DNA of 24,217 nt, from positions 1 through 24,217 of IMG/VR virus record IMGVR_UViG_3300044825_001069; one strand, 5' to 3'. The notes beneath the pieces are model-generated. The model saw nothing but the letters and a program-made list of their open reading frames with translations, was not told the origin of the DNA and ran no database searches. Positions within the stretch are counted from its first letter, which is position 1; each line of letters starts with the position of its first letter. Of the stretch, positions 1,100 to 18,793 are shown one piece after another. The DNA is from a virus. The translations under genes and the position numbers were made by a program.

Positions 1100-2914
1100 T
1101 TAAAAAGGTTCATCAGTTGTTTTATCATTTAAAAAATAGTTATTTGTTTCTTTTATTTCAACTTGTCTTGTAGATAATTGTTTCCATTTTACTATTGGGT
1201 CATTTCCATAAATATCTGTAAATCCACAATTATTAATTTTCATTTTTAAAATAAATGGCATATCTAATGGAGTATAACCTCCTCCAGTTTCAATTTCTTT
1301 AATTTTTCTTACATGTAGTTGAGTACACATCCAGTTTTCAGGGTCTTGTGTTTCTCTATGTATAGTTACAAAGTCATCAGCTTTATTTGCAAATTTTCCT
1401 CCACCTTCTGTATCTGCTTTCATAGGTGCAGTTTTTAATCTCATTGCTCCTGTTACTACATGGCAGTTTAAATATACACAAATATCTCTTTTTTTGGCAA
1501 ACATTTGCATTTCACTTGCAGCTTCGTAATGATATTCATGTGTACTTAATTTACTATTATCTGATAAATCTATTTTTAAAGCATTGTAAGGGTCTAATAA
1601 TAAACCATCGTATTTATCTTTTAAGAGTAATTTTTCAGTAATTGTAAGTATATCTTTATAATTATACATCTGTTCATTATTAATTATAGTAAATTTTGAT
1701 TTTATAAAATTATAAGCATTTTCATATTGCATTTCTTTTAACAAATGTATTTTTTCACTACAATAAAATTCAATTAACCTTTTAATTACTGAGCCGTTTC
1801 TATTTTCTGCTGAATATATTATCCATTTCCAACCATGATAAAGAGAACTTAATAAACAAAAATACCAAAGAGTAGTTGACTTACCTACATTATCAAAACC
1901 ATTATAAACGTTAAAATTACCTCTTTTAAATAAAAAATAATTATCTAATGTATCTAAACCAGTTGATAATCCTTTTGTGAATGTTCCTTGTCTCCATTCA
2001 ATTAAATAATTATTAATATCATTTTCATCTGCTAAAAATGAAAAATCATTATCATTTAAATTAATTGTTGATTTAACTTTTGTTTGTTTTATAGGTTCTT
2101 CTATTATTGGTTCGGTTTTACCGTAATTAATCCCATCTAAAATAGTTTGCCTTGCTGTATCAAAATTATCAACTCCTTTATCATTTATTTCTTTTTCAAG
2201 TAATCTTATAGCTTCATTTTCTTCTACATAACCAGTTGCAATATAACCACCCATTAATTTAGATGCCTTCAAAAGAGTAGCGTGTTTACCTCCATCAATT
2301 GAATTTCTAATCATTTCTAATGAAATATTTACCTTTGAATAATCTGTTTTTGTAGCTTTTTTAGTTTTTACATCTTTTGTTTTTATGTTTTCTACTTCTA
2401 CATAATCTGTAAATTTAACTGCATTTTCATTTATCCATAAATTAGCATCTACAGATTCAAAACAAATACGACTTTCATTTATTGATGTACTATCTAATTC
2501 TGGAAATACTTTTAATATTCCACGATAGTAACCCCTATGTTTTTCGATTATAGGAGGTATTTTTACTATTGCTTTAACTCCATTACCACTTGGTGAAATA
2601 AATGCGCTATAAATGAAATTAAAGCGTTTTAAAGATATTTTAAATTCCTCTGCATTATCTAATTTATCAAAATCCAAAATAATGTAACCTGAATGTTCAG
2701 TTAAATCTTTATCAGAACGTGTTAAAAATTTTCCTGAAAAACAAATACAAGGCAATTTCTTTTTTAAAATAGCTTTTCTTTTTTCATCCTTTTCATTTCT
2801 TAATTCATCTATTTTATTTTGTATTTTACATTCTTTAATTCTTTGCAAAACTTTATCAATAGGCAAATAATAAGGATTTTTGGTCTCGTTAAAATCTTTA
2901 AATACAGTTATCAT
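1100..2914 (-). CDS. Primase-helicase: VirE-N/BT4734-type primase fused to DnaB-like helicase
   Basis: A 604-residue replication protein. The N-terminal third resembles the VirE N-terminal/BT4734-like domain of Bacteroidota elements, an archaeo-eukaryotic primase-like fold: IILDFDKL (78-85) carries a D-x-D pair fit to bind metal (D81, D83), and SPSGNGVK (107-114) is the second signature. The C-terminal half is a RecA-like SF4 helicase: Walker A GFDNVGKST (339-347), Walker B GLLLDPYNAL (437-446), then NCH (483-485) in the sensor region. By analogy with T7 gp4 it should prime and unwind at the phage fork, but from unrelated primase parts. It overlaps the upstream nuclease gene by 4 nt (ATGA), implying coupling. 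Family reading is by motif; enzymatic activity is inferred. Confidence 0.85.
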   Translation of the reverse strand: MITVFKDFNETKNPYYLPIDKVLQRIKECKIQNKIDELRNEKDEKRKAILKKKLPCICFSGKFLTRSDKDLTEHSGYIILDFDKLDNAEEFKISLKRFNFIYSAFISPSGNGVKAIVKIPPIIEKHRGYYRGILKVFPELDSTSINESRICFESVDANLWINENAVKFTDYVEVENIKTKDVKTKKATKTDYSKVNISLEMIRNSIDGGKHATLLKASKLMGGYIATGYVEENEAIRLLEKEINDKGVDNFDTARQTILDGINYGKTEPIIEEPIKQTKVKSTINLNDNDFSFLADENDINNYLIEWRQGTFTKGLSTGLDTLDNYFLFKRGNFNVYNGFDNVGKSTTLWYFCLLSSLYHGWKWIIYSAENRNGSVIKRLIEFYCSEKIHLLKEMQYENAYNFIKSKFTIINNEQMYNYKDILTITEKLLLKDKYDGLLLDPYNALKIDLSDNSKLSTHEYHYEAASEMQMFAKKRDICVYLNCHVVTGAMRLKTAPMKADTEGGGKFANKADDFVTIHRETQDPENWMCTQLHVRKIKEIETGGGYTPLDMPFILKMKINNCGFTDIYGNDPIVKWKQLSTRQVEIKETNNYFLNDKTTDEPF

Positions 2915-3492
2915 AGCATTAATTTTTTTTCAAGTTTAACATAATTTACTTCTATGATACCAGTTTCTTGTTCTGTTTTTTTGCCATTAATCCATAAACT
3001 ATCTGATTTCCAAATAGTAGAATTACTAACAGAAAAATAATAACCATTACGTGATTTTCTTACTTCACCTACTCCAAATACTCCTAAAAAACCATTGAAA
3101 GAATGGTGACTAAAATTTTCATCATGCCTATCTTTATGAAATTTTTTACCTTCTATTTCTACTGTTAAATCATTTAATATAAAATAATGATAAGATAAAG
3201 CTGGGCAAATAAAAATAGGGACTTTTTTAAATATACCTTTTTCAATTTCAAATTCATATTTAGTATAACGAATAGCTTGTTTTACATATTCGCCTATTTC
3301 TTCACCTCTTTTACTATTTGGCTGTTTACATTCAACTCCAAAATAATATTTGTCTTTGTAATTTAGTAAAATATCTATTCTACCATTTTTGCATTTGCTC
3401 CAAACTTCTAAGTTAACTTTAAAATGTTTACTGAAAGTGTAAGCAACTACATCTACAAATTCTTGCTCTGTTTTAAATTTATTTTTCTCCAT
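2911..3492 (-). CDS. PD-(D/E)XK-type nuclease-like protein
   Basis: 193 aa. The N-terminal part has the pattern of a restriction-endonuclease-like fold: a helix with E11, then GRIDIL (D40), then FGVECK (E54, K56) and a following helix with Q72. This is D-x13-E-x-K, the usual active site of this superfamily. The C-terminal half (about 100-193) is unfamiliar, with several Gly and aromatic residues. It sits between the replication initiator (14-nt overlap) and the primase-helicase (4-nt overlap), so a role in replication, branch resolution or host DNA breakdown is likely. It could instead be a defence-type nuclease; the exact family is not clear to me. Confidence 0.65.
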   Translation of the reverse strand: MEKNKFKTEQEFVDVVAYTFSKHFKVNLEVWSKCKNGRIDILLNYKDKYYFGVECKQPNSKRGEEIGEYVKQAIRYTKYEFEIEKGIFKKVPIFICPALSYHYFILNDLTVEIEGKKFHKDRHDENFSHHSFNGFLGVFGVGEVRKSRNGYYFSVSNSTIWKSDSLWINGKKTEQETGIIEVNYVKLEKKLML

Positions 3493-4084
3493 ACCTTCTC
3501 ATTTCCTCCATTTGTTCTGCTACTGATTTTATTTTTTTGGCTTCAGGTTTTATTTTATTTTCTTCAGTAAACCAAACTGATTGTGCTTTTTGTTTCCAGT
3601 TTATTACTTTTTTTCCATTGCTATCTTTCCATTCTGATACTGAATAAAAATCAAAAAACTTTTTTGCTGAAATTTCTGTATATCCTTTTTCTTTAAAATA
3701 ATCTATAATTTCATTTACATTTACATTTTCCATATGAGAGGTCATATGACCTTTCTTATGACCTACTTTTTTTGTTGTTTTTTCTGTATATTGATTTTTA
3801 CCTTTTATGTTGTTTCTTCTCGATTCAGTAAAGGCTTTACGCTTTTTTTTCTCCTCTTCTAACCGAATATTATACCATAATCCATTTTCGTCTTGAATAA
3901 ATTTATGTTGTATTGATGACCAAAGTTGACCAACCATACGACCTATCATATGAGAGGTCATATGACCTTGATTAAATTGTGTCATTAATAATTCAAAATA
4001 TGCACCTTTTTCTTCAAAGGTCATACCTAATGTACCACTTATCCAATCTGATGGATAAAAAAGAAAAGCTGGGTCTTTAGCCAT
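3479..4084 (-). CDS. Phage replication initiator, DnaD/Lin1244-like winged-helix protein
   Basis: 201 aa. The N-terminus (AFLFYPSDWISGTLGMTFEE, 6-25, then GAYFELLM) is typical of the winged-helix N-domain of phage replisome organisers related to DUF1376/Lin1244. A basic linker (75-120) follows, then a C-terminal helical domain (about 121-172, with YFKEKGYTE, FFDFY and WKQKAQSVWF) of the kind that recruits a helicase or its loader. It heads the block of nuclease and primase-helicase genes. Tetrapeptide repeats at 40-55 (GHMT, SHMI, GRMV, GQLW) and 108-119 (GHKK, GHMT, SHME) reflect 12-bp DNA repeats, described separately. Part of the first set may be conserved for protein reasons. Initiator role is inferred from domain type and position. 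Confidence 0.72.
   Translation of the reverse strand: MAKDPAFLFYPSDWISGTLGMTFEEKGAYFELLMTQFNQGHMTSHMIGRMVGQLWSSIQHKFIQDENGLWYNIRLEEEKKKRKAFTESRRNNIKGKNQYTEKTTKKVGHKKGHMTSHMENVNVNEIIDYFKEKGYTEISAKKFFDFYSVSEWKDSNGKKVINWKQKAQSVWFTEENKIKPEAKKIKSVAEQMEEMRRYGEK
3728..3763 (-). repeat. Iteron cluster 2: three 12-bp tandem units in initiator linker
   Basis: Reading the minus strand: GGTCATAAGAAA (3763-3752), GGTCATATGACC (3751-3740), TCTCATATGGAA (3739-3728). The middle unit is a perfect palindrome, extended to AGGTCATATGACCT. A 23-bp stretch (3731-3753) recurs exactly at 3947-3969, 216 bp away, which is 18 unit lengths. It lies in the poorly constrained linker of the initiator, as expected for an origin embedded in its gene. 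Confidence 0.6.
3920..3967 (-). repeat. Iteron cluster 1: four 12-bp tandem units in initiator gene
   Basis: Reading the minus strand: GGTCATATGACC (3967-3956), TCTCATATGATA (3955-3944), GGTCGTATGGTT (3943-3932), GGTCAACTTTGG (3931-3920). The consensus GGTCATATG decays along the array. Units are exactly adjacent with a 12-bp period and encode degenerate tetrapeptides G-H-M-T, S-H-M-I, G-R-M-V, G-Q-L-W. Candidate initiator-binding sites. Confidence 0.55.
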
Positions 4085-4265
4085 TTTTGTTTTCTATTAA
4101 GTTTATAAAATCTTTTAATTCATTCATAAATTCTTTTGCTTGTTCTAACTGCAAAATAATATGTGTTCTTTCACCAGTTCTATGTTGAACTAAAAAAACA
4201 ATCTCATGATAAATATTATCGTAAATAGATATTTCATTACCATTTAATGAATCATATTTTTTCAT
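4077..4265 (-). CDS. Hypothetical protein, 62 aa
   Basis: Small protein starting MKKYDSLNGNEISIYD, with a beta-like segment HEIVFLVQHRTG followed by a helix LEQAKEFMNELKDFINLIE. No known family recognised. It overlaps the replication initiator by 8 nt and is the first gene after the structured RNA and terminator at 4279-4354, so any read-through control there acts on this gene and the replication genes behind it. Function unknown; it could be a small regulator or partner of the initiator. Confidence 0.6.
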   Translation of the reverse strand: MKKYDSLNGNEISIYDNIYHEIVFLVQHRTGERTHIILQLEQAKEFMNELKDFINLIENKNG

Positions 4266-4278
4266 ATTTTTTTAAATT

Positions 4279-4354
4279 AAAAAACCCCTAACGATTCGGT
4301 TTAGGTTACTAACCTTGTGTTGCATCTACTCAACACACCGAACCATTAGAGGTT
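4279..4354 (-). terminator. Branched intrinsic terminator ahead of replication genes
   Basis: The 18-bp stem closing the three-way junction ends in GGGG (4288-4285) followed by six T on the minus strand (4284-4279; the first two are also in the stem). This is a GC-end plus U-tract arrangement, with a branched instead of simple stem-loop. It lies 13 nt upstream of the ATG at 4265, so it would stop or throttle transcription into the replication block. Confidence 0.6.
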
Positions 4355-4400
4355 CAAAATTTTACTGTAGATGTTATGTCAATCGGTTAGTTACTCCGAT
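4279..4400 (-). ncRNA. Candidate structured phage RNA: 5' hairpin, pseudoknot, three-way junction, U-tail
   Basis: Predicted transcript on the minus strand, start near 4400, end near 4279. Elements in order: a 5' hairpin (ATCGG 4382-4386 with CCGAT 4396-4400); a linker; an 18-bp outer stem (4337-4354 with 4283-4300), continuous if three G-U wobbles are allowed; inside it two hairpins, 4317-4336 (GUGUUG/CAACAC, 8-nt loop) and 4303-4315 (AGGUU/AACCU, 3-nt loop), joined by 0, 1 and 2 nt. The wobbles become A-C mismatches on the other strand, so the RNA must read from the minus strand. The loop GUAGAUG (4329-4323) is complementary over 7 nt to linker CAUCUAC (4373-4367). Separately, leader ACUAACC (4391-4385) can pair with GGUUAGU (4314-4308) in the second hairpin. 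It could be a free sRNA or an attenuator in front of the replication genes. It is not a tRNA: no CCA end, anticodon arm or T-arm. Confidence 0.65.
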
Positions 4401-4404
4401 GCTG

Positions 4405-4412
4405 CAAATATA
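4405..4412 (-). promoter_or_regulatory. Promoter -7 box for the structured RNA
   Basis: TATATTTG on the minus strand (4412-4405) is an exact match to the Bacteroidota TAnnTTTG box and is followed by CAGC. The predicted start about 5 nt downstream falls at the first base of the 5' hairpin. No TTG is visible at the usual -33 distance, which lowers confidence. Confidence 0.5.
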
Positions 4413-4427
4413 CAAAAAGTTTTTTAA

Positions 4428-4709
4428 TTATTCTATTCCTTTGTAAAATTCTTCTCTCATATTTGAATTAATAGTATGGTAAATATCACCTATTTTATCT
4501 AAGTATTCACCCTCAGTTACATTCTTTGTTTCAAGTTGTTCTAAGAGTTTAAAACCTATTCTTTGCCATAGATTAAAGTCAGCCAGCATCTTTTGTCTAA
4601 ACTTTCCAGTTAAGTGAGTGCTTTGCTCAATTGTTGCCTTGAATAAACCAATTAATAAATGGCTTTCAAATTCAAGTTTTGATTGTTCAGGTGTTAGTGT
4701 TTTTTCCAT
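4428..4709 (-). CDS. Hypothetical helical protein, 93 aa
   Basis: Starts MEKTLTPEQSKLEFESHL and is predicted almost wholly alpha-helical, with amphipathic stretches at about 7-30, 38-60 and 68-90. No Cys/His metal site, membrane segment or known motif. It overlaps the NinG gene by 23 nt and is the last gene before the promoter and structured RNA, so it ends the recombination sub-block. Function unknown. Confidence 0.6.
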   Translation of the reverse strand: MEKTLTPEQSKLEFESHLLIGLFKATIEQSTHLTGKFRQKMLADFNLWQRIGFKLLEQLETKNVTEGEYLDKIGDIYHTINSNMREEFYKGIE

Positions 4710-9352: not shown

Positions 9353-9364
9353 AAATTTTTTGAT

Positions 9365-9439
9365 TATATTTGCACTCGTTCTTTGTGATTTTCATACAAA
9401 TGTTTTTAACACTAAAAGCAGCTTTCGGGCTGCTTTTTT
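9365..9439 (+). ncRNA. Possible plus-strand small RNA antisense to holin leader
   Basis: TATATTTG occurs on the plus strand at 9365-9372 and a strong terminator with six T follows at 9414-9439. A transcript of about 60 nt starting near 9379 is implied, antisense to the region upstream of the holin start (9352). No TTG lies at the ideal -33 spacing (the nearest TTTG, 9334-9337, is 27 nt away). Speculative. Confidence 0.3.
9414..9439. terminator. Intrinsic terminator, end of structural/lysis operon
   Basis: AAAAGCAGC (9414-9422) and GCTGCTTTT (9429-9437) form a 9-bp stem with a 6-nt loop. It sits 4 nt past the stop of the DUF5675 gene on the minus strand, with four T there, and has six T on the plus strand. 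It can act both ways, better in the plus direction. Confidence 0.85.
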
Positions 9440-9440
9440 G

Positions 9441-15107: not shown

Positions 15108-15713
15108 TTAATATAAATCTTTATAATCAACCCACTTGTTTAATATAGTACTTTGATTAGGTGGGTGTAAAACAAGTTTTTCTTTGCTTTTAAACCATTT
15201 TAATGAAGGCATTAACCCTGCAATATAAGTATCAATTTGTTTTTCCTCTTTTTCTATTTCTTTTAAAATTATTGGAATAGCTTTTTTACTAACTATATAA
15301 CCATAACCGCCCCAACTTGCAAAACATTTGTTTAACATGATTGAGTAATTTACCGTACTTCCTAAAGGTGAGTAACCACCTAAATGTATGCCATCCCAAT
15401 CTTCAGGCAATTCTTTTAAACAATCTTCTAATTTATTTAAAAAGTCATCTGTAAAATCAACGTCATCTTCTAAAATAAAAACACTCTCCAAATTTTCATT
15501 TAAAGAGTGCTGAAGTATTGCCTTATGACTGCGAAGGGTTGCTATTTCAGTCGGCAATAAAAAACCATTATGCTTTATTCCTTTACTTTCGGTTGCCTTC
15601 CACGTTTCCGCTTTGATTCCTGCTCTTTTGGAATTTCTTGCAAATTGTTTTCTCCTATCTCCAGAGGATTGTAAGTTAATGCAATAACATTTTCCGATAT
15701 TTGCTCGAAAGTT
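15108..15713 (-). CDS. GT25-type glycosyltransferase, open only in -1 frame from upstream gene
   Basis: The conserved N-terminus of a GT25 (LPS-biosynthesis type) enzyme is present: KCYCINLQSSGDRRKQFARN, then an AETWKATE segment, NGFLLPTEIATLRSHKAIL, and the catalytic-type acid cluster VFILEDDVDF. Further on come HLGGYSPLG, SWGGYGYIVSKKAI and HPPNQSTI. No ATG, GTG or TTG lies between the last in-frame stop and the CINL strand; the first available start (TTG 15557) is inside the domain and would remove the sugar-nucleotide strand. The frame is exactly -1 to the preceding gene and meets it at an A9 run, so it is probably made as a frameshift fusion of 266 aa (65 + 201). A rare AUU/AUC start or an indel in the A-run are alternatives. 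It should transfer sugar to a phage or host surface target. Confidence 0.65.
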   Translation of the reverse strand, partial: NFRANIGKCYCINLQSSGDRRKQFARNSKRAGIKAETWKATESKGIKHNGFLLPTEIATLRSHKAILQHSLNENLESVFILEDDVDFTDDFLNKLEDCLKELPEDWDGIHLGGYSPLGSTVNYSIMLNKCFASWGGYGYIVSKKAIPIILKEIEKEEKQIDTYIAGLMPSLKWFKSKEKLVLHPPNQSTILNKWVDYKDLY

Positions 15714-15907
15714 TTTTTTTCTTCTTGTAATTGTGCATCGTACAAAGGATTTAATTCAATTAAATGCCCCTGCCCTGAAATAAACATTAAGTTAGCAAAA
15801 TAATCATTGAAGTTTAAATGATTTACCAAAACATCATTTCCTGATTTATCTTTAGTGATTATATCACAATGGATAAATTCTTGCTTAATTCTAAATTTTA
15901 AATTCAT
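15575..15907 (-). CDS. Small virion-associated protein, 110 aa, donor frame for GT25 fusion
   Basis: Starts MNLKFRIKQEFIHCDIITKD and has a compact beta-rich first 60 residues. The zero-frame C-terminus (66-110) ends in a basic tail ESKRKRGRQPKVKE with an AT-hook-like RGRQPK. Codons in this tail (TTC, TCG, CTG, GAG, CGG, AGG, CCG) are richer in G/C than elsewhere, as expected if both frames are under selection. It overlaps the methyltransferase-like gene by 4 nt. It could be a head or glycosylation-cassette accessory protein; family not recognised. Its last 139 nt also encode the GT25 N-terminus in the -1 frame. Confidence 0.6.
   Translation of the reverse strand: MNLKFRIKQEFIHCDIITKDKSGNDVLVNHLNFNDYFANLMFISGQGHLIELNPLYDAQLQEEKKTFEQISENVIALTYNPLEIGENNLQEIPKEQESKRKRGRQPKVKE
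15713..15719 (-). other. Candidate -1 frameshift slippery site A_AAA_AAA
   Basis: Nine A in a row (15720-15712 on the minus strand) are read GAA-AAA-AAA-ACT in the frame of the upstream gene, giving the heptamer A_AAA_AAA in the correct phase. A -1 slip continues AAC-TTT-CGA-GCA into the GT25 frame, which is open to 15108. Polymerase slippage on A9 could give the same product. No downstream stimulatory structure was established. Confidence 0.5.
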
Positions 15908-16476
15908 ACTCTTTTTAAAATAGTTAAACCGTTATTATTTGTATATTGTCTGTAAATATACCATTCTTTATTTGCTTCTAAAAATTCATTTACCGCTGGC
16001 ATCAACCCTGTTTTATTTTCCGTTTGGTAGTTTTCCATGATTTCAGGAGTTTGCCAATCAGTCGGTTCATCAATTGCCCCGTAAGTAGTTGTGTCATGTA
16101 AAACAATATATTTTTTCGCTTTTTTGCCATGTTTAAACAATTCTTTTTTCAGTTGTGAGTAAATGTGTAAGGTATCAATAAAAAGTAAATCTGTAGTCTC
16201 TATATCAATTTTAAGCGTATCTGCTTGTTTAAATTTCCAATTAGGGTAAACCTTTATAGCTTCATCAATATTAGGGTGAACATGCAAATCTATTCCGACT
16301 AAAACACTTGGATTTCTATACATAAATGCCCACGTACTAACAACCGAACGCACCCCCATTTCTGTAATATGTGAACATTCTTTTGCTAAGTCATATAATA
16401 CTGGCAAATGTTCGTTTATATCACTTGGAGTTTTACAAGCCTGATAATAATTGTCTCTAATTAATAGTTGATTCAT
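15904..16476 (-). CDS. Class I methyltransferase-like protein (CmcI/cephalosporin-hydroxylase-like)
   Basis: 190 aa. Rossmann-type motif I ITEMGVRSVVSTWAF (37-51; E39, G41, R43), motif II-like LVGIDLH (59-65), ADTLKIDI (85-92), LLFIDTLHIYSQ (97-108) and KYIVLHDTTTYG (122-133). The E-x-G-x-R start with FIDtlHxY and LHDT is the pattern of the CmcI-type SAM-dependent enzymes found in polysaccharide loci. It lies within the glycosyltransferase cassette, overlapping genes on both sides, so it probably modifies a sugar (O-methylation) or the glycan acceptor. The reaction is not determined. Confidence 0.65.
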   Translation of the reverse strand: MNQLLIRDNYYQACKTPSDINEHLPVLYDLAKECSHITEMGVRSVVSTWAFMYRNPSVLVGIDLHVHPNIDEAIKVYPNWKFKQADTLKIDIETTDLLFIDTLHIYSQLKKELFKHGKKAKKYIVLHDTTTYGAIDEPTDWQTPEIMENYQTENKTGLMPAVNEFLEANKEWYIYRQYTNNNGLTILKRV

Positions 16477-17068
16477 ATTGAGTTTTAATTTCGTTTACTT
16501 GTTCTAAAGGCAAATATTTTTCTATTGCGTGATAGCCTAATGTTCCTAAATGAAATTGTGTTTCACAGCTAAATTTATTTGCAACTTCAACTGGTGCTAA
16601 ATTCAATTTTAAAAAATTACAACCCCACGCAAAAAATATATCTTCATTCATATCATTTTCAGGATTACAAACTTCTAAAACTTTTAACATTGCAGATTTA
16701 TGCCTGAAGCTTAATCCACCATTGCCAACAAAAGGCTGAAAGTTCCAACTTGCTCCAATATAATCGTATTGGTAAAATTCCTCAATACCTTCTCTTAATA
16801 ACCTGCTATCCTCTTGAAATATTAATATATTTTCCTCTTTTATTTTATTCCAAAATTCTTTTGATTTTAAAAGTTTATTATAACCTCTAATATCATTAAC
16901 ATTAACTACATGAAATTCACAATTAAGCATTTCTTGTAAATGCCTATTATCTTCACTGCTAAAAATATAAAGTTTTGTATAATTAGGTAAATAAAATAAA
17001 TGTTCAGTAATTACTTGGTAAAGGCTTAATCTTCTTGTATCTACTATTACTGCAGCTAATTCATGCAT
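16457..17068 (-). CDS. DUF5672-family glycosyltransferase-like protein
   Basis: 203 aa. It shows the DUF5672 order of motifs: AAVIVDTRR (5-13), GYNKLLKSKEFWNKIKEENI (62-81), LIFQEDSRLL (82-91; acid pair likely in place of DxD), YDYIGASW (101-108), VGNGGLSFR (114-122), NEDIFFAW (141-148) and a C-terminal GYHAIEKYL. Proteins with this domain sit in glycan-synthesis clusters and in Bacteroidota phages. Start at 17068 is fixed by an in-frame stop seven codons upstream. The 64-nt gap before it has no clear promoter. Substrate unknown. Confidence 0.75.
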   Translation of the reverse strand: MHELAAVIVDTRRLSLYQVITEHLFYLPNYTKLYIFSSEDNRHLQEMLNCEFHVVNVNDIRGYNKLLKSKEFWNKIKEENILIFQEDSRLLREGIEEFYQYDYIGASWNFQPFVGNGGLSFRHKSAMLKVLEVCNPENDMNEDIFFAWGCNFLKLNLAPVEVANKFSCETQFHLGTLGYHAIEKYLPLEQVNEIKTQYESTIN

Positions 17069-17132
17069 AGTTGTATCGTATATATTTTACATTTCCAAAC
17101 TTCAAAAATACCATCATAAAAATGATAAATAA

Positions 17133-17873
17133 TCATATCAAAGTTTTTTCAAAGTTAGGATGTTTTTTTAAAAATTCAGGTAAATTGTTTTTGTTATATT
17201 TTATAGCATTCCAAAGGTTAATTGAAACTGGATGCAAATCACCAAAGTTATTTTCAGGTGTCCATTTATAAAATATCTTTTCTAAGTAGTCAGCTTTAAT
17301 TTCATTTGCGTGTCCAAAACATGAGTATTTATATTCCATTATTGCTCTACTTTGTGCAGTGCTAAAATGATAAATAGTTAAAGGGCAATTTAAATTCTGT
17401 AATGAATTATGATTGTTTAAATTCTCAATTCTTATTGGTCTAAATCCATCTAAACAAATATGATTAAACGACCTCCAAAAATTAAGATAACCTTTTATGC
17501 CAAAATATCTTTCAGGATGCGTATATGCGTATTTTAAAGCTATTTCTATTTCAGTTGGTTCGAATACCTCATCTGCATCAATAGTCAATATTAAATCAAA
17601 TCCTTGTGAATATTTTTTTGCTACATTTCTATGTATGTTTTCTGCTCCATAAAAATCAGCTTCATCCCAAATTAATTTATTCCCTAAAGTTTCTTCACAT
17701 ACTTTGCGTATATCTTCGGCTTTATCAGGGCATTCTAAAATGGTTTTAAATCCATGCGAAGGTTTATGAACATAACTAACAACCATGCCATCAACGTGGT
17801 CTCTAATTGATAATAAACTTTCCCTTAAATATTCTAAACCATAGTGAATGGTCATAAATCCTAAAACCTTCAT
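17133..17873 (-). CDS. GT2-like (GT-A) glycosyltransferase
   Basis: 246 aa. The N-terminus MKVLGFMTIHYGLEYLRESL followed by LSIRDHVDGMVVSY follows the GT-A pattern of a nucleotide-sugar-binding strand and helix; EADFYGAENIHRNVA (71-85) and LILTIDADEVFEP (94-106) give the D-x-D motif (D99, D101). The rest (GIKGYLNFWRSFNH, GFRPIRIENL, HFSTAQS) fits small phage GT2-like enzymes. No membrane segment, so it acts on a cytoplasmic acceptor. It overlaps the next transferase gene by 4 nt. Confidence 0.75.
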   Translation of the reverse strand: MKVLGFMTIHYGLEYLRESLLSIRDHVDGMVVSYVHKPSHGFKTILECPDKAEDIRKVCEETLGNKLIWDEADFYGAENIHRNVAKKYSQGFDLILTIDADEVFEPTEIEIALKYAYTHPERYFGIKGYLNFWRSFNHICLDGFRPIRIENLNNHNSLQNLNCPLTIYHFSTAQSRAIMEYKYSCFGHANEIKADYLEKIFYKWTPENNFGDLHPVSINLWNAIKYNKNNLPEFLKKHPNFEKTLI

Positions 17874-18793
17874 TTTACTAATTTTAATATATTTTCTACT
17901 TGGTGTTTAAATGTGTTTTTATTTAATACTAATTGTTGTCCGTTGTAAGCAATTTGTTTTCTTTCATCTTCATTTTGTAAATAATAATCAATCTTATTAT
18001 TTAAATCTTCTATTGAATCAAAATAAACTAAATGTTTATAATTTTCATAGTCCTGCTCCATTTCAGGATGCTTATATGACAAACAAAAAGCACCACTGCC
18101 TAATATTCTTAAAAGCCTATCTGAATTATAACGAGGTACATTATAATGACTGCAATTAATAGCCATCTTACAACCACGATACCATTTAGCTTCCTCATGC
18201 TGTGAATTATTTACATTTCCATTTCCTTTTAACCAACCACTACCAAATAAACCAAATGAATTTAATTTATTTTTTAAGTTTTCAGCTATTTCAATTCTAA
18301 ATTGACTAAATGGAAAATAACCAGCCCCATAATTGTTAGCCATAAACAATACCTCATAATTAGTATAACAATCGCCAATGCTATTGTAAATATTTTCATC
18401 ATAACCAATTTCAAGATATTCAGAATCATAACCTAATTTTTGCATTTCTCTTACGTCTTCCATATTACTAAAAGCTGTTAAGTTGACAAAAGGTGCAGCA
18501 TCAACCATCCATTGTGGCACACTATTTCTTTTGTCACCAGTCCAATTAATTACAAAAGCACCATTACTTTTTAAATAATCAAATGTTTGATTTGAAACTA
18601 TATTTTCAGCTTGTATTTGAAAGAAAACAATATCAGGTTTACATTCATTATACTTTTGTAAAATCTTTAGATTTAAGTATTGTTCACCAGTACTTAATTC
18701 AAAGTAATTTTCTTTGCCTAAAACATCTTTAAATGCTTTTTGAAATCCGTTTTCACCTTCGGAAACGCATAAACCTATGTGTAATAATTTCAT
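17870..18793 (-). CDS. CgeB-like GT-B glycosyltransferase
   Basis: 307 aa. The N-terminal half has alternating strands (KLLHIGLCV; PDIVFFQIQAE; GAFVINWTGD); the C-terminal half has the donor-binding pattern of GT-B family 1 relatives: NSDRLLRILGSGAFCLS (about 225-241), PEMEQDYENYKHLVYFDSIE and DERKQIAYNGQQLV. This is the arrangement seen in spore protein CgeB and the glycosyl-transferase-1-2 domain. The ATG overlaps the stop of the upstream transferase gene by 1 nt. It would add a sugar to the same glycan or protein as its neighbours. Confidence 0.78.
   Translation of the reverse strand: MKLLHIGLCVSEGENGFQKAFKDVLGKENYFELSTGEQYLNLKILQKYNECKPDIVFFQIQAENIVSNQTFDYLKSNGAFVINWTGDKRNSVPQWMVDAAPFVNLTAFSNMEDVREMQKLGYDSEYLEIGYDENIYNSIGDCYTNYEVLFMANNYGAGYFPFSQFRIEIAENLKNKLNSFGLFGSGWLKGNGNVNNSQHEEAKWYRGCKMAINCSHYNVPRYNSDRLLRILGSGAFCLSYKHPEMEQDYENYKHLVYFDSIEDLNNKIDYYLQNEDERKQIAYNGQQLVLNKNTFKHQVENILKLVK

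Follow-up and report, generated by a model that had tools for sequence, protein, structure and literature searches.

A structured RNA ahead of the replication genes

The analysed window (24,217 nucleotides, positions 1 to 24,217 of IMG/VR virus record IMGVR_UViG_3300044825_001069) carries a minus-strand replication operon that is preceded by an intergenic gap of 162 nt (4266-4427). A sequence-only reading had placed a pseudoknotted three-way-junction RNA of unrecognized type in this gap, which raises the questions whether such an RNA exists and what it might do at the head of a replication operon. All elements listed in that reading were found on the minus strand, namely the promoter box, the 5' hairpin (H0), the linker, the closing stem (P1) with three G-U pairs, two hairpins (P2 and P3), three-way junction joins of 0/1/2 nt, and a T6 tract. 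Its placement of the element before replication genes was borne out by the PHROG matches of the downstream products. The features are as follows, all on the minus strand.

4428..4709, minus: conserved 93-aa gene upstream of the RNA, the query for relatives (57 loci)
4405..4412, minus: predicted promoter box TATATTTG (TAnnTTTG; sequence reading)
4382..4400, minus: 5' hairpin H0, AUCGG / loop AGUAACUAA / CCGAU, 4400-4396 paired with 4386-4382 (sequence and fold)
4367..4373, minus: 5' strand of pseudoknot PK1, linker CAUCUAC, pairs with 4323-4329 (7 bp)
4340..4355, minus: antiterminator-like hairpin GAACC/GGUUC, 4355-4351 with 4344-4340 (truncated-transcript minimum free energy (MFE) folds and covariation)
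4337..4354, minus: 5' strand of P1, closing/terminator stem of 18 bp, pairs with 4283-4300
4317..4336, minus: hairpin P2, GUGUUG / AGUAGAUG / CAACAC (covariation)
4323..4329, minus: 3' strand of PK1, GUAGAUG, within the 8-nt loop of P2, exact complement of the linker
4303..4315, minus: hairpin P3, AGGUU-AGU-AACCU, its loop contacting H0 (covariation)
4283..4300, minus: 3' strand of P1, pairs with 4337-4354
4279..4284, minus: T6 tract, end of the terminator-like element (sequence reading)
4077..4265, minus: first downstream gene, 62 aa, start 13 nt after the T tract
3479..4084, minus: second gene of the operon, replication/primosomal-type protein (PHROG 3992, E 3e-8)
1100..2914, minus: DnaB-like primase/helicase of the same operon (PHROG 18375, E 2e-79)

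No ORF of at least 60 aa among the window ORFs covers positions 4279-4412. A generic terminator scan of the window did not list the element, because the scan allows short loops only.

The minus strand folded with -43.3 kcal/mol, compared to -26.9 ± 3.3 kcal/mol for shuffled sequences (z = -5.0; 0 of 200 shuffles), and a 7-nt loop match was seen by chance in 0.8% of the sequences obtained by shuffling the 5' part. The strand assignment of the sequence-only reading held: an RNA on the plus strand was ruled out by its weaker fold (z = -2.75) and by the low score of the model built for this RNA on the reverse strand (22.5 versus 115.3 bits). The decisive evidence for the RNA is comparative and comes from the homologous sequences described below.

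Homologues and covariation

The 93-aa upstream gene has 57 relatives in IMG/VR, and the region following it contains the same RNA (referred to as type A) in many loci and different RNAs in others. A pattern scan for type A returned 63 stretches, six of which were chance matches in unrelated sequence, and the corresponding scan for a second RNA (type B) returned 52. Strong matches to the type A model (E < 1e-19) numbered 68 in one locus set and 11 in another, several of them being one contig under two locus names. All six helices, i.e., H0, P1, P2, P3 and the two tertiary contacts PK1 and PK2, held in a first alignment of 22 type A sequences, which was made with MAFFT and without use of structure. 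In a larger, model-aligned set of 60 sequences (34 distinct), standard pairs occupied 99.8% of 1292 cells, a nested-pair count that leans toward the nested structure to which this set was fitted; PK1 and PK2 are absent from the model and thus were not favoured by the alignment. Changes on both sides of a pair were observed for 29 of the 38 pairs among the 34 distinct homologues, and covariation reached 0.532 versus 0.157 in shuffled alignments (0 of 500 shuffles). Sliding the partners by 1-3 nt made the pairing collapse to 27-39%. Double changes affected 13 of 15 aligned pairs in P1, four of five in P2 and all three aligned stem pairs in P3, and H0 reads GUUGG/CCAAC in L131/L157, with two compensatory pairs. 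The type A homologues, too, have a T-rich tract after the stem.

The sequence-only reading had named homologues that keep the gap and lose the pairing as the observation that would speak against it; the homologues keep the pairing, and the compensatory changes it had proposed to look for in the 18-bp stem and in both 7-nt contacts were found. We conclude that the pseudoknotted three-way-junction RNA at 4412-4279 is real and lies far beyond chance expectation. Sequence comparison further establishes the predicted promoter box, the six helices including both tertiary contacts, the U tract and the placement of the element. A chance structure, or just an ordinary terminator hairpin, could also arise in a long intergenic region that is rich in A+T and has a T tract, but all helices covary and the observed values were reached by none of the 500 shuffles, which leaves this explanation a negligible probability.

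The pseudoknot PK1 and the loop-loop contact PK2

PK1, in which the linker pairs with the P2 loop over 7 bp, was paired in 100% of cells in both type A alignments and showed a covariation of 0.86 versus 0.18 after shuffling. It is intact in every type A copy and occurs in 14 alleles of different sequence. The second 7-nt match of the sequence-only reading (4391-4385 with 4314-4308) was thought to break the second hairpin and to create two alternative folds. Instead, it proved to be a loop-loop contact, PK2, between H0 and P3, with a central 5 bp of ACUAA (4391-4387) and UUAGU (4312-4308). PK2 is compatible with P3 because it uses loop bases while the base of P3 stays in place. Two of its positions covary among the type A homologues (exchanges G-C/U-A and C-G/U-A), and it occurs as ACUAA/UUAGU, as ACGAA/UUCGU and, in L131/L157, as a third version, UGAUGA/UCAUCA.

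Several RNAs that are near-identical elsewhere differ by three to four whole pseudoknot pairs, as observed for L025, L037 and L046 (type A) and for L016 versus L005 and L115 versus L126 (type B). On a tree built without PK1, we counted 4.86 parsimony steps per PK1 pair versus 2.18 for the other helix pairs. The apparent faster change of the PK1 sequence relative to the rest of the RNA is suggestive only, because P2 and P3 are as different as PK1 at larger distances and recombination blurs the tree. A pseudoknot that seems to change fast yet is always perfectly paired constitutes a concrete, testable puzzle. Pairing of PK1 with the downstream gene is unlikely, since one allele was seen with many downstream genes. 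It is conceivable, albeit improbable in our judgment, that PK1 acts as a specificity tag, with a constant core in which whole sets of pairs are swapped so that each leader folds on itself. If true, such a tag would prevent, or put to use, trans pairing between the leaders of competing phages that share a cell, and would represent an RNA-based incompatibility at the replication operon.

An alternative, antiterminator-like hairpin

Although the second 7-nt match need not create two alternative folds, a different alternative was found that uses the 5' strand of P1. The segment preceding P1, which reads AACAUUUAG in most type A copies, is similar to the 3' strand of P1, and the 5' strand can therefore pair with either; the resulting antiterminator-like hairpin and the 5' half of P1 are mutually exclusive. 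In its main register, 90.9% of cells were paired, with a covariation of 0.199 versus 0.109 in shuffled alignments. Omitting the 3' strand of P1 from the folded transcripts gave 34 minimum free energy structures, 33 of which contained a hairpin of four or more pairs at this position, the energies of these truncated transcripts ignoring pseudoknots; L067 was the one transcript of the 34 without it. The register in the window (GAACC/GGUUC) differs from that of most type A homologues. The alternative hairpin appears to have the anatomy of an antiterminator, with weaker support than the main fold. No obvious antiterminator was seen in type B.

Other RNAs at the same site

Among 45 loci whose 93-aa gene is at least 66% identical, 43 carry an RNA of type A, B, C or D, as searched within about 2.5 kb downstream of that gene and with loci that are partly non-independent; in the remaining two, the contig ends too soon to show any of them. 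The site lies between the 93-aa gene and the replication genes. Most records contain one copy of A or B, some contigs contain one of each, and where both occur in one contig, A comes first.

Type B has a 5' hairpin of 4 bp with an 8-nt loop, which contains a 7-nt complement to the apical loop of the terminator-like stem. This match was present in all 32 distinct copies, and type B covariation amounted to 0.341 versus 0.121 after shuffling. The conserved internal loop UGAGUA/GAAAG of type B presumably fits the bulged-G (sarcin-ricin) consensus AGUA/GAA. A hammerhead-like core, considered for the same element, was dropped, the element being a two-sided internal loop. Types C and D follow the same plan with unrelated sequence and were found in few copies; their matches comprise 9-10 nt (C) and 7 nt (D), and their U tracts are weak. 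Type B was also detected ahead of endonuclease-type genes in five contigs unrelated to the window, one of which (L117) is 266 kb long. Copies of these kinds are located as follows.

L012, 4285-4409, and L011, 4229-4366: type C/D candidate leader RNAs at the same genomic place
L117, 3161-3245, and L133, 5304-5391: type B before GIY-YIG/NUMOD endonuclease genes (Pfam)
L146, 9174-9262: type B before a similar endonuclease gene (by eye)
L148, 4977-5063, and L124, 1890-1971: type B before HNH-like genes (by eye)

All four types have in common a short perfect contact between a 5' segment and a loop in the terminator-like stem, which spans 7 nt in A, B and D and 9-10 nt in C. This shared contact suggests one design principle, either arrived at repeatedly or retained despite strong divergence.

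Promoter, neighbouring genes and host

The box TATATTTG matches TAnnTTTG, which we take to be the -7 promoter box of Bacteroidota. Of 46 type A copies, 45 have it just ahead of the RNA, as do 35 of 39 type B copies; the type B copies without it are in distant contigs (it is absent before type B in L117, L133, L146 and L148). Of 72 A and B copies followed by a scorable, ATG-started ORF, 71 have a co-directional start codon 3-39 nt beyond the end of the T tract, with gaps in some type A rows overlong by up to about 11 nt because an earlier T run was scored. The exception is the type B copy in L130, which has an overlapping upstream alternative start. In the window, the stretch between T6 and the ATG was unpaired in the centroid fold, which fits control of termination better than masking of the start codon.

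The 62-aa gene following the RNA has four relatives in IMG/VR, all of them in contigs where a type A RNA also directly precedes the gene. The product of 1100..2914 contains a BT4734-like_N domain above and a DnaB_C domain below the cut-off. Type B directly precedes replication-type genes in small phages, a label with partial family support (for example, a DUF6291 protein in L030). Downstream genes also occur without the element in some relatives (L024 versus L022). In the distant relatives L047-L058, the same site carries a TATATTTG-like box and no RNA, and the next gene follows directly. From this arrangement, the promoter seems normally to drive the genes downstream of it, with the RNAs positioned after it as leaders. 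The box in L047-L058 lies a few nt before a GTG start, just after the relative of the 93-aa gene, and the GTG-started message is possibly a leaderless mRNA.

Assignment to a Bacteroidota host rests on the promoter box, the BT4734-like domain and NinG, which matches Flavobacterium phages at about 50% identity, and is thus a sequence-based prediction. Neither A nor B had a DNA match among cultured phages (50,697 records), and no copy of either was found by exact pattern in 84,980 bacterial and archaeal genomes, which thus offer no prophage context. Together with the lack of an integrase in 17 records, which are possibly incomplete, this gives no sign of lysogeny.

Comparison with known regulatory RNAs

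In agreement with the sequence-only reading, in which the motif was not recognized, Rfam 15 gave no match in the whole window and no credible match for six loci representing types A, B and C. Even at a lax threshold the best window hits were at chance level (e.g., S15-Flavobacteria with 17 bits versus the 46.5 needed); membership in a known RNA family was rejected, as no score exceeded the gathering threshold. Our data hence add at least two structured RNA families with covariation support (A and B), neither of them in Rfam 15, which stand before phage replication genes, at a site that is served by several different RNAs.

The element resembles attenuators and transcriptional riboswitches in its order of predicted promoter, structured leader, competing hairpin and terminator-like stem before the first gene. 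The scored A and B copies occupy a 5' leader position on the strand of the gene, and their sequence predicts an intrinsic terminator (P1 and T tract) before the start. In contrast to such systems, it has no leader peptide, no recognized aptamer and no Rfam match, it contains an apparently fast-changing 7-bp pseudoknot, and other RNA types occur at the same site. No leader ORF is common to the copies: in type A, no shared ATG precedes the terminator stem, and distant copies of type B lack the ATG that others have within the 5' stem, so that a leader peptide was rejected for both.

IsrK of Gifsy-1 and the CI/seqA immunity RNAs of P4 are phage RNAs ahead of phage genes that are governed by termination or read-through; IsrK is equipped with a promoter and a terminator of its own, and in P4 short complementary sequences direct an early stop of transcription ahead of the replication genes (PMC4825925). 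The RNA described here likewise lies ahead of phage genes and contains complementary 7-mers, but these lie within one RNA, and no sign of lysogeny was seen in the records and genomes given above. The HK022 put RNA consists of two stem-loops of about 70 nt, and putL is a structured RNA directly after an early promoter (PMC9378689). The type A element likewise is a structured phage RNA directly after a predicted promoter, but it has a three-way junction, a pseudoknot, a kissing contact and T6, and does not show the structure expected of put.

The promoter-early stem-loop (PeSL) cassettes of T4-type phages, ascribed to Arbiol et al. in 2010, reportedly combine a promoter with a terminator-like hairpin around which genes are shuffled. 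Several such promoter and stem-loop copies occur per T4-type genome. The element is similar in that a promoter and a terminator-like hairpin lie between co-directional genes with different genes around them; it differs in its usually single copy per record, its conserved pseudoknotted fold and its occurrence in other phages and hosts.

Proposed function and alternative explanations

Since the RNA ends in a terminator-like signal before the first gene, it probably is a switch acting on the replication genes, and we propose, with roughly even confidence, that it is a cis-acting transcription attenuator (a terminator/antiterminator leader) of the replication operon. According to this model, host RNA polymerase would start just after TATATTTG and transcribe H0 and then the linker. 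The linker would initially be the partner of the 5' strand of P1, as the antiterminator, after which P2 would bind the linker through the 7-bp pseudoknot and P3 would kiss H0. As soon as the 3' strand of P1 emerges, the 18-bp stem and U6 could stop transcription 13 nt before the start codon. Read-through would yield the mRNA of the replication operon and termination a stable RNA of about 120-130 nt. The model presumes that the RNA is transcribed autonomously, that the P1 stem is a true terminator, that the pseudoknot fold sets the choice between termination and read-through, and that some phage or host factor may shift this choice. Covariation of all helices and both contacts, the placement of the element and the competing hairpin in most type A copies argue for attenuation. 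Counting against it are the weak U tracts of C and D, the lack of an obvious antiterminator in type B, the antiterminator register of the window, which is unlike that of most homologues, and the absence of this hairpin from L067, as well as the downstream genes that lack the element in some relatives. Moreover, compact operons could put any small RNA gene near the next start.

The main rival to the attenuator is a free, trans-acting sRNA of about 125 nt, stable and made early in infection from its own promoter and intrinsic terminator. It would act on a host or phage target (RNA, polymerase or defence protein), its position before replication genes being incidental. The promoter box in nearly all type A copies, the strong terminator-like end and the elaborate fold with two tertiary contacts would all suit such an RNA, and one pseudoknot allele occurs between many different upstream and downstream genes, which indicates that the RNA is not adapted to a single mRNA. 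Still, the scored A and B copies are always co-directional with the next gene and lie at most 39 nt before its start, even in the unrelated L117 and L146, and the promoter, but not the RNA, is present in the distant lineage. The context therefore leans towards a cis leader, and we regard the free sRNA as unlikely, although it deserves serious consideration. The same exchange of neighbours, with one pseudoknot allele in several upstream contexts and before several downstream genes, and the replacement of A and B by each other at one site, sometimes in succession, would also fit a mobile promoter and terminator cassette of the PeSL kind that insulates transcription units and offers homology for gene swapping. 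A mere terminator would have no need for a perfect 7-bp pseudoknot and a kissing contact, however, and records usually hold one copy, which makes this explanation improbable. Finally, by analogy to putL, which is placed alike (PMC9378689), a structured RNA that opens an operon immediately behind an early-type promoter might ride on the elongating polymerase and suppress termination over the replication operon, its own stem included. We consider this quite doubtful, as A and B are built differently from the two stem-loops of put and contain a terminator-like stem with a T tract.

Other observations in the window

Two further regions of the window were noted. At 9353-9440, in a gap flanked by minus-strand genes, the plus strand carries a TTATATTTG box that no obvious gene on that strand follows. 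A run of minus-strand ORFs at 15108-18793, some of which are glycosyltransferase-like by eye, lies between portal-like and head genes.
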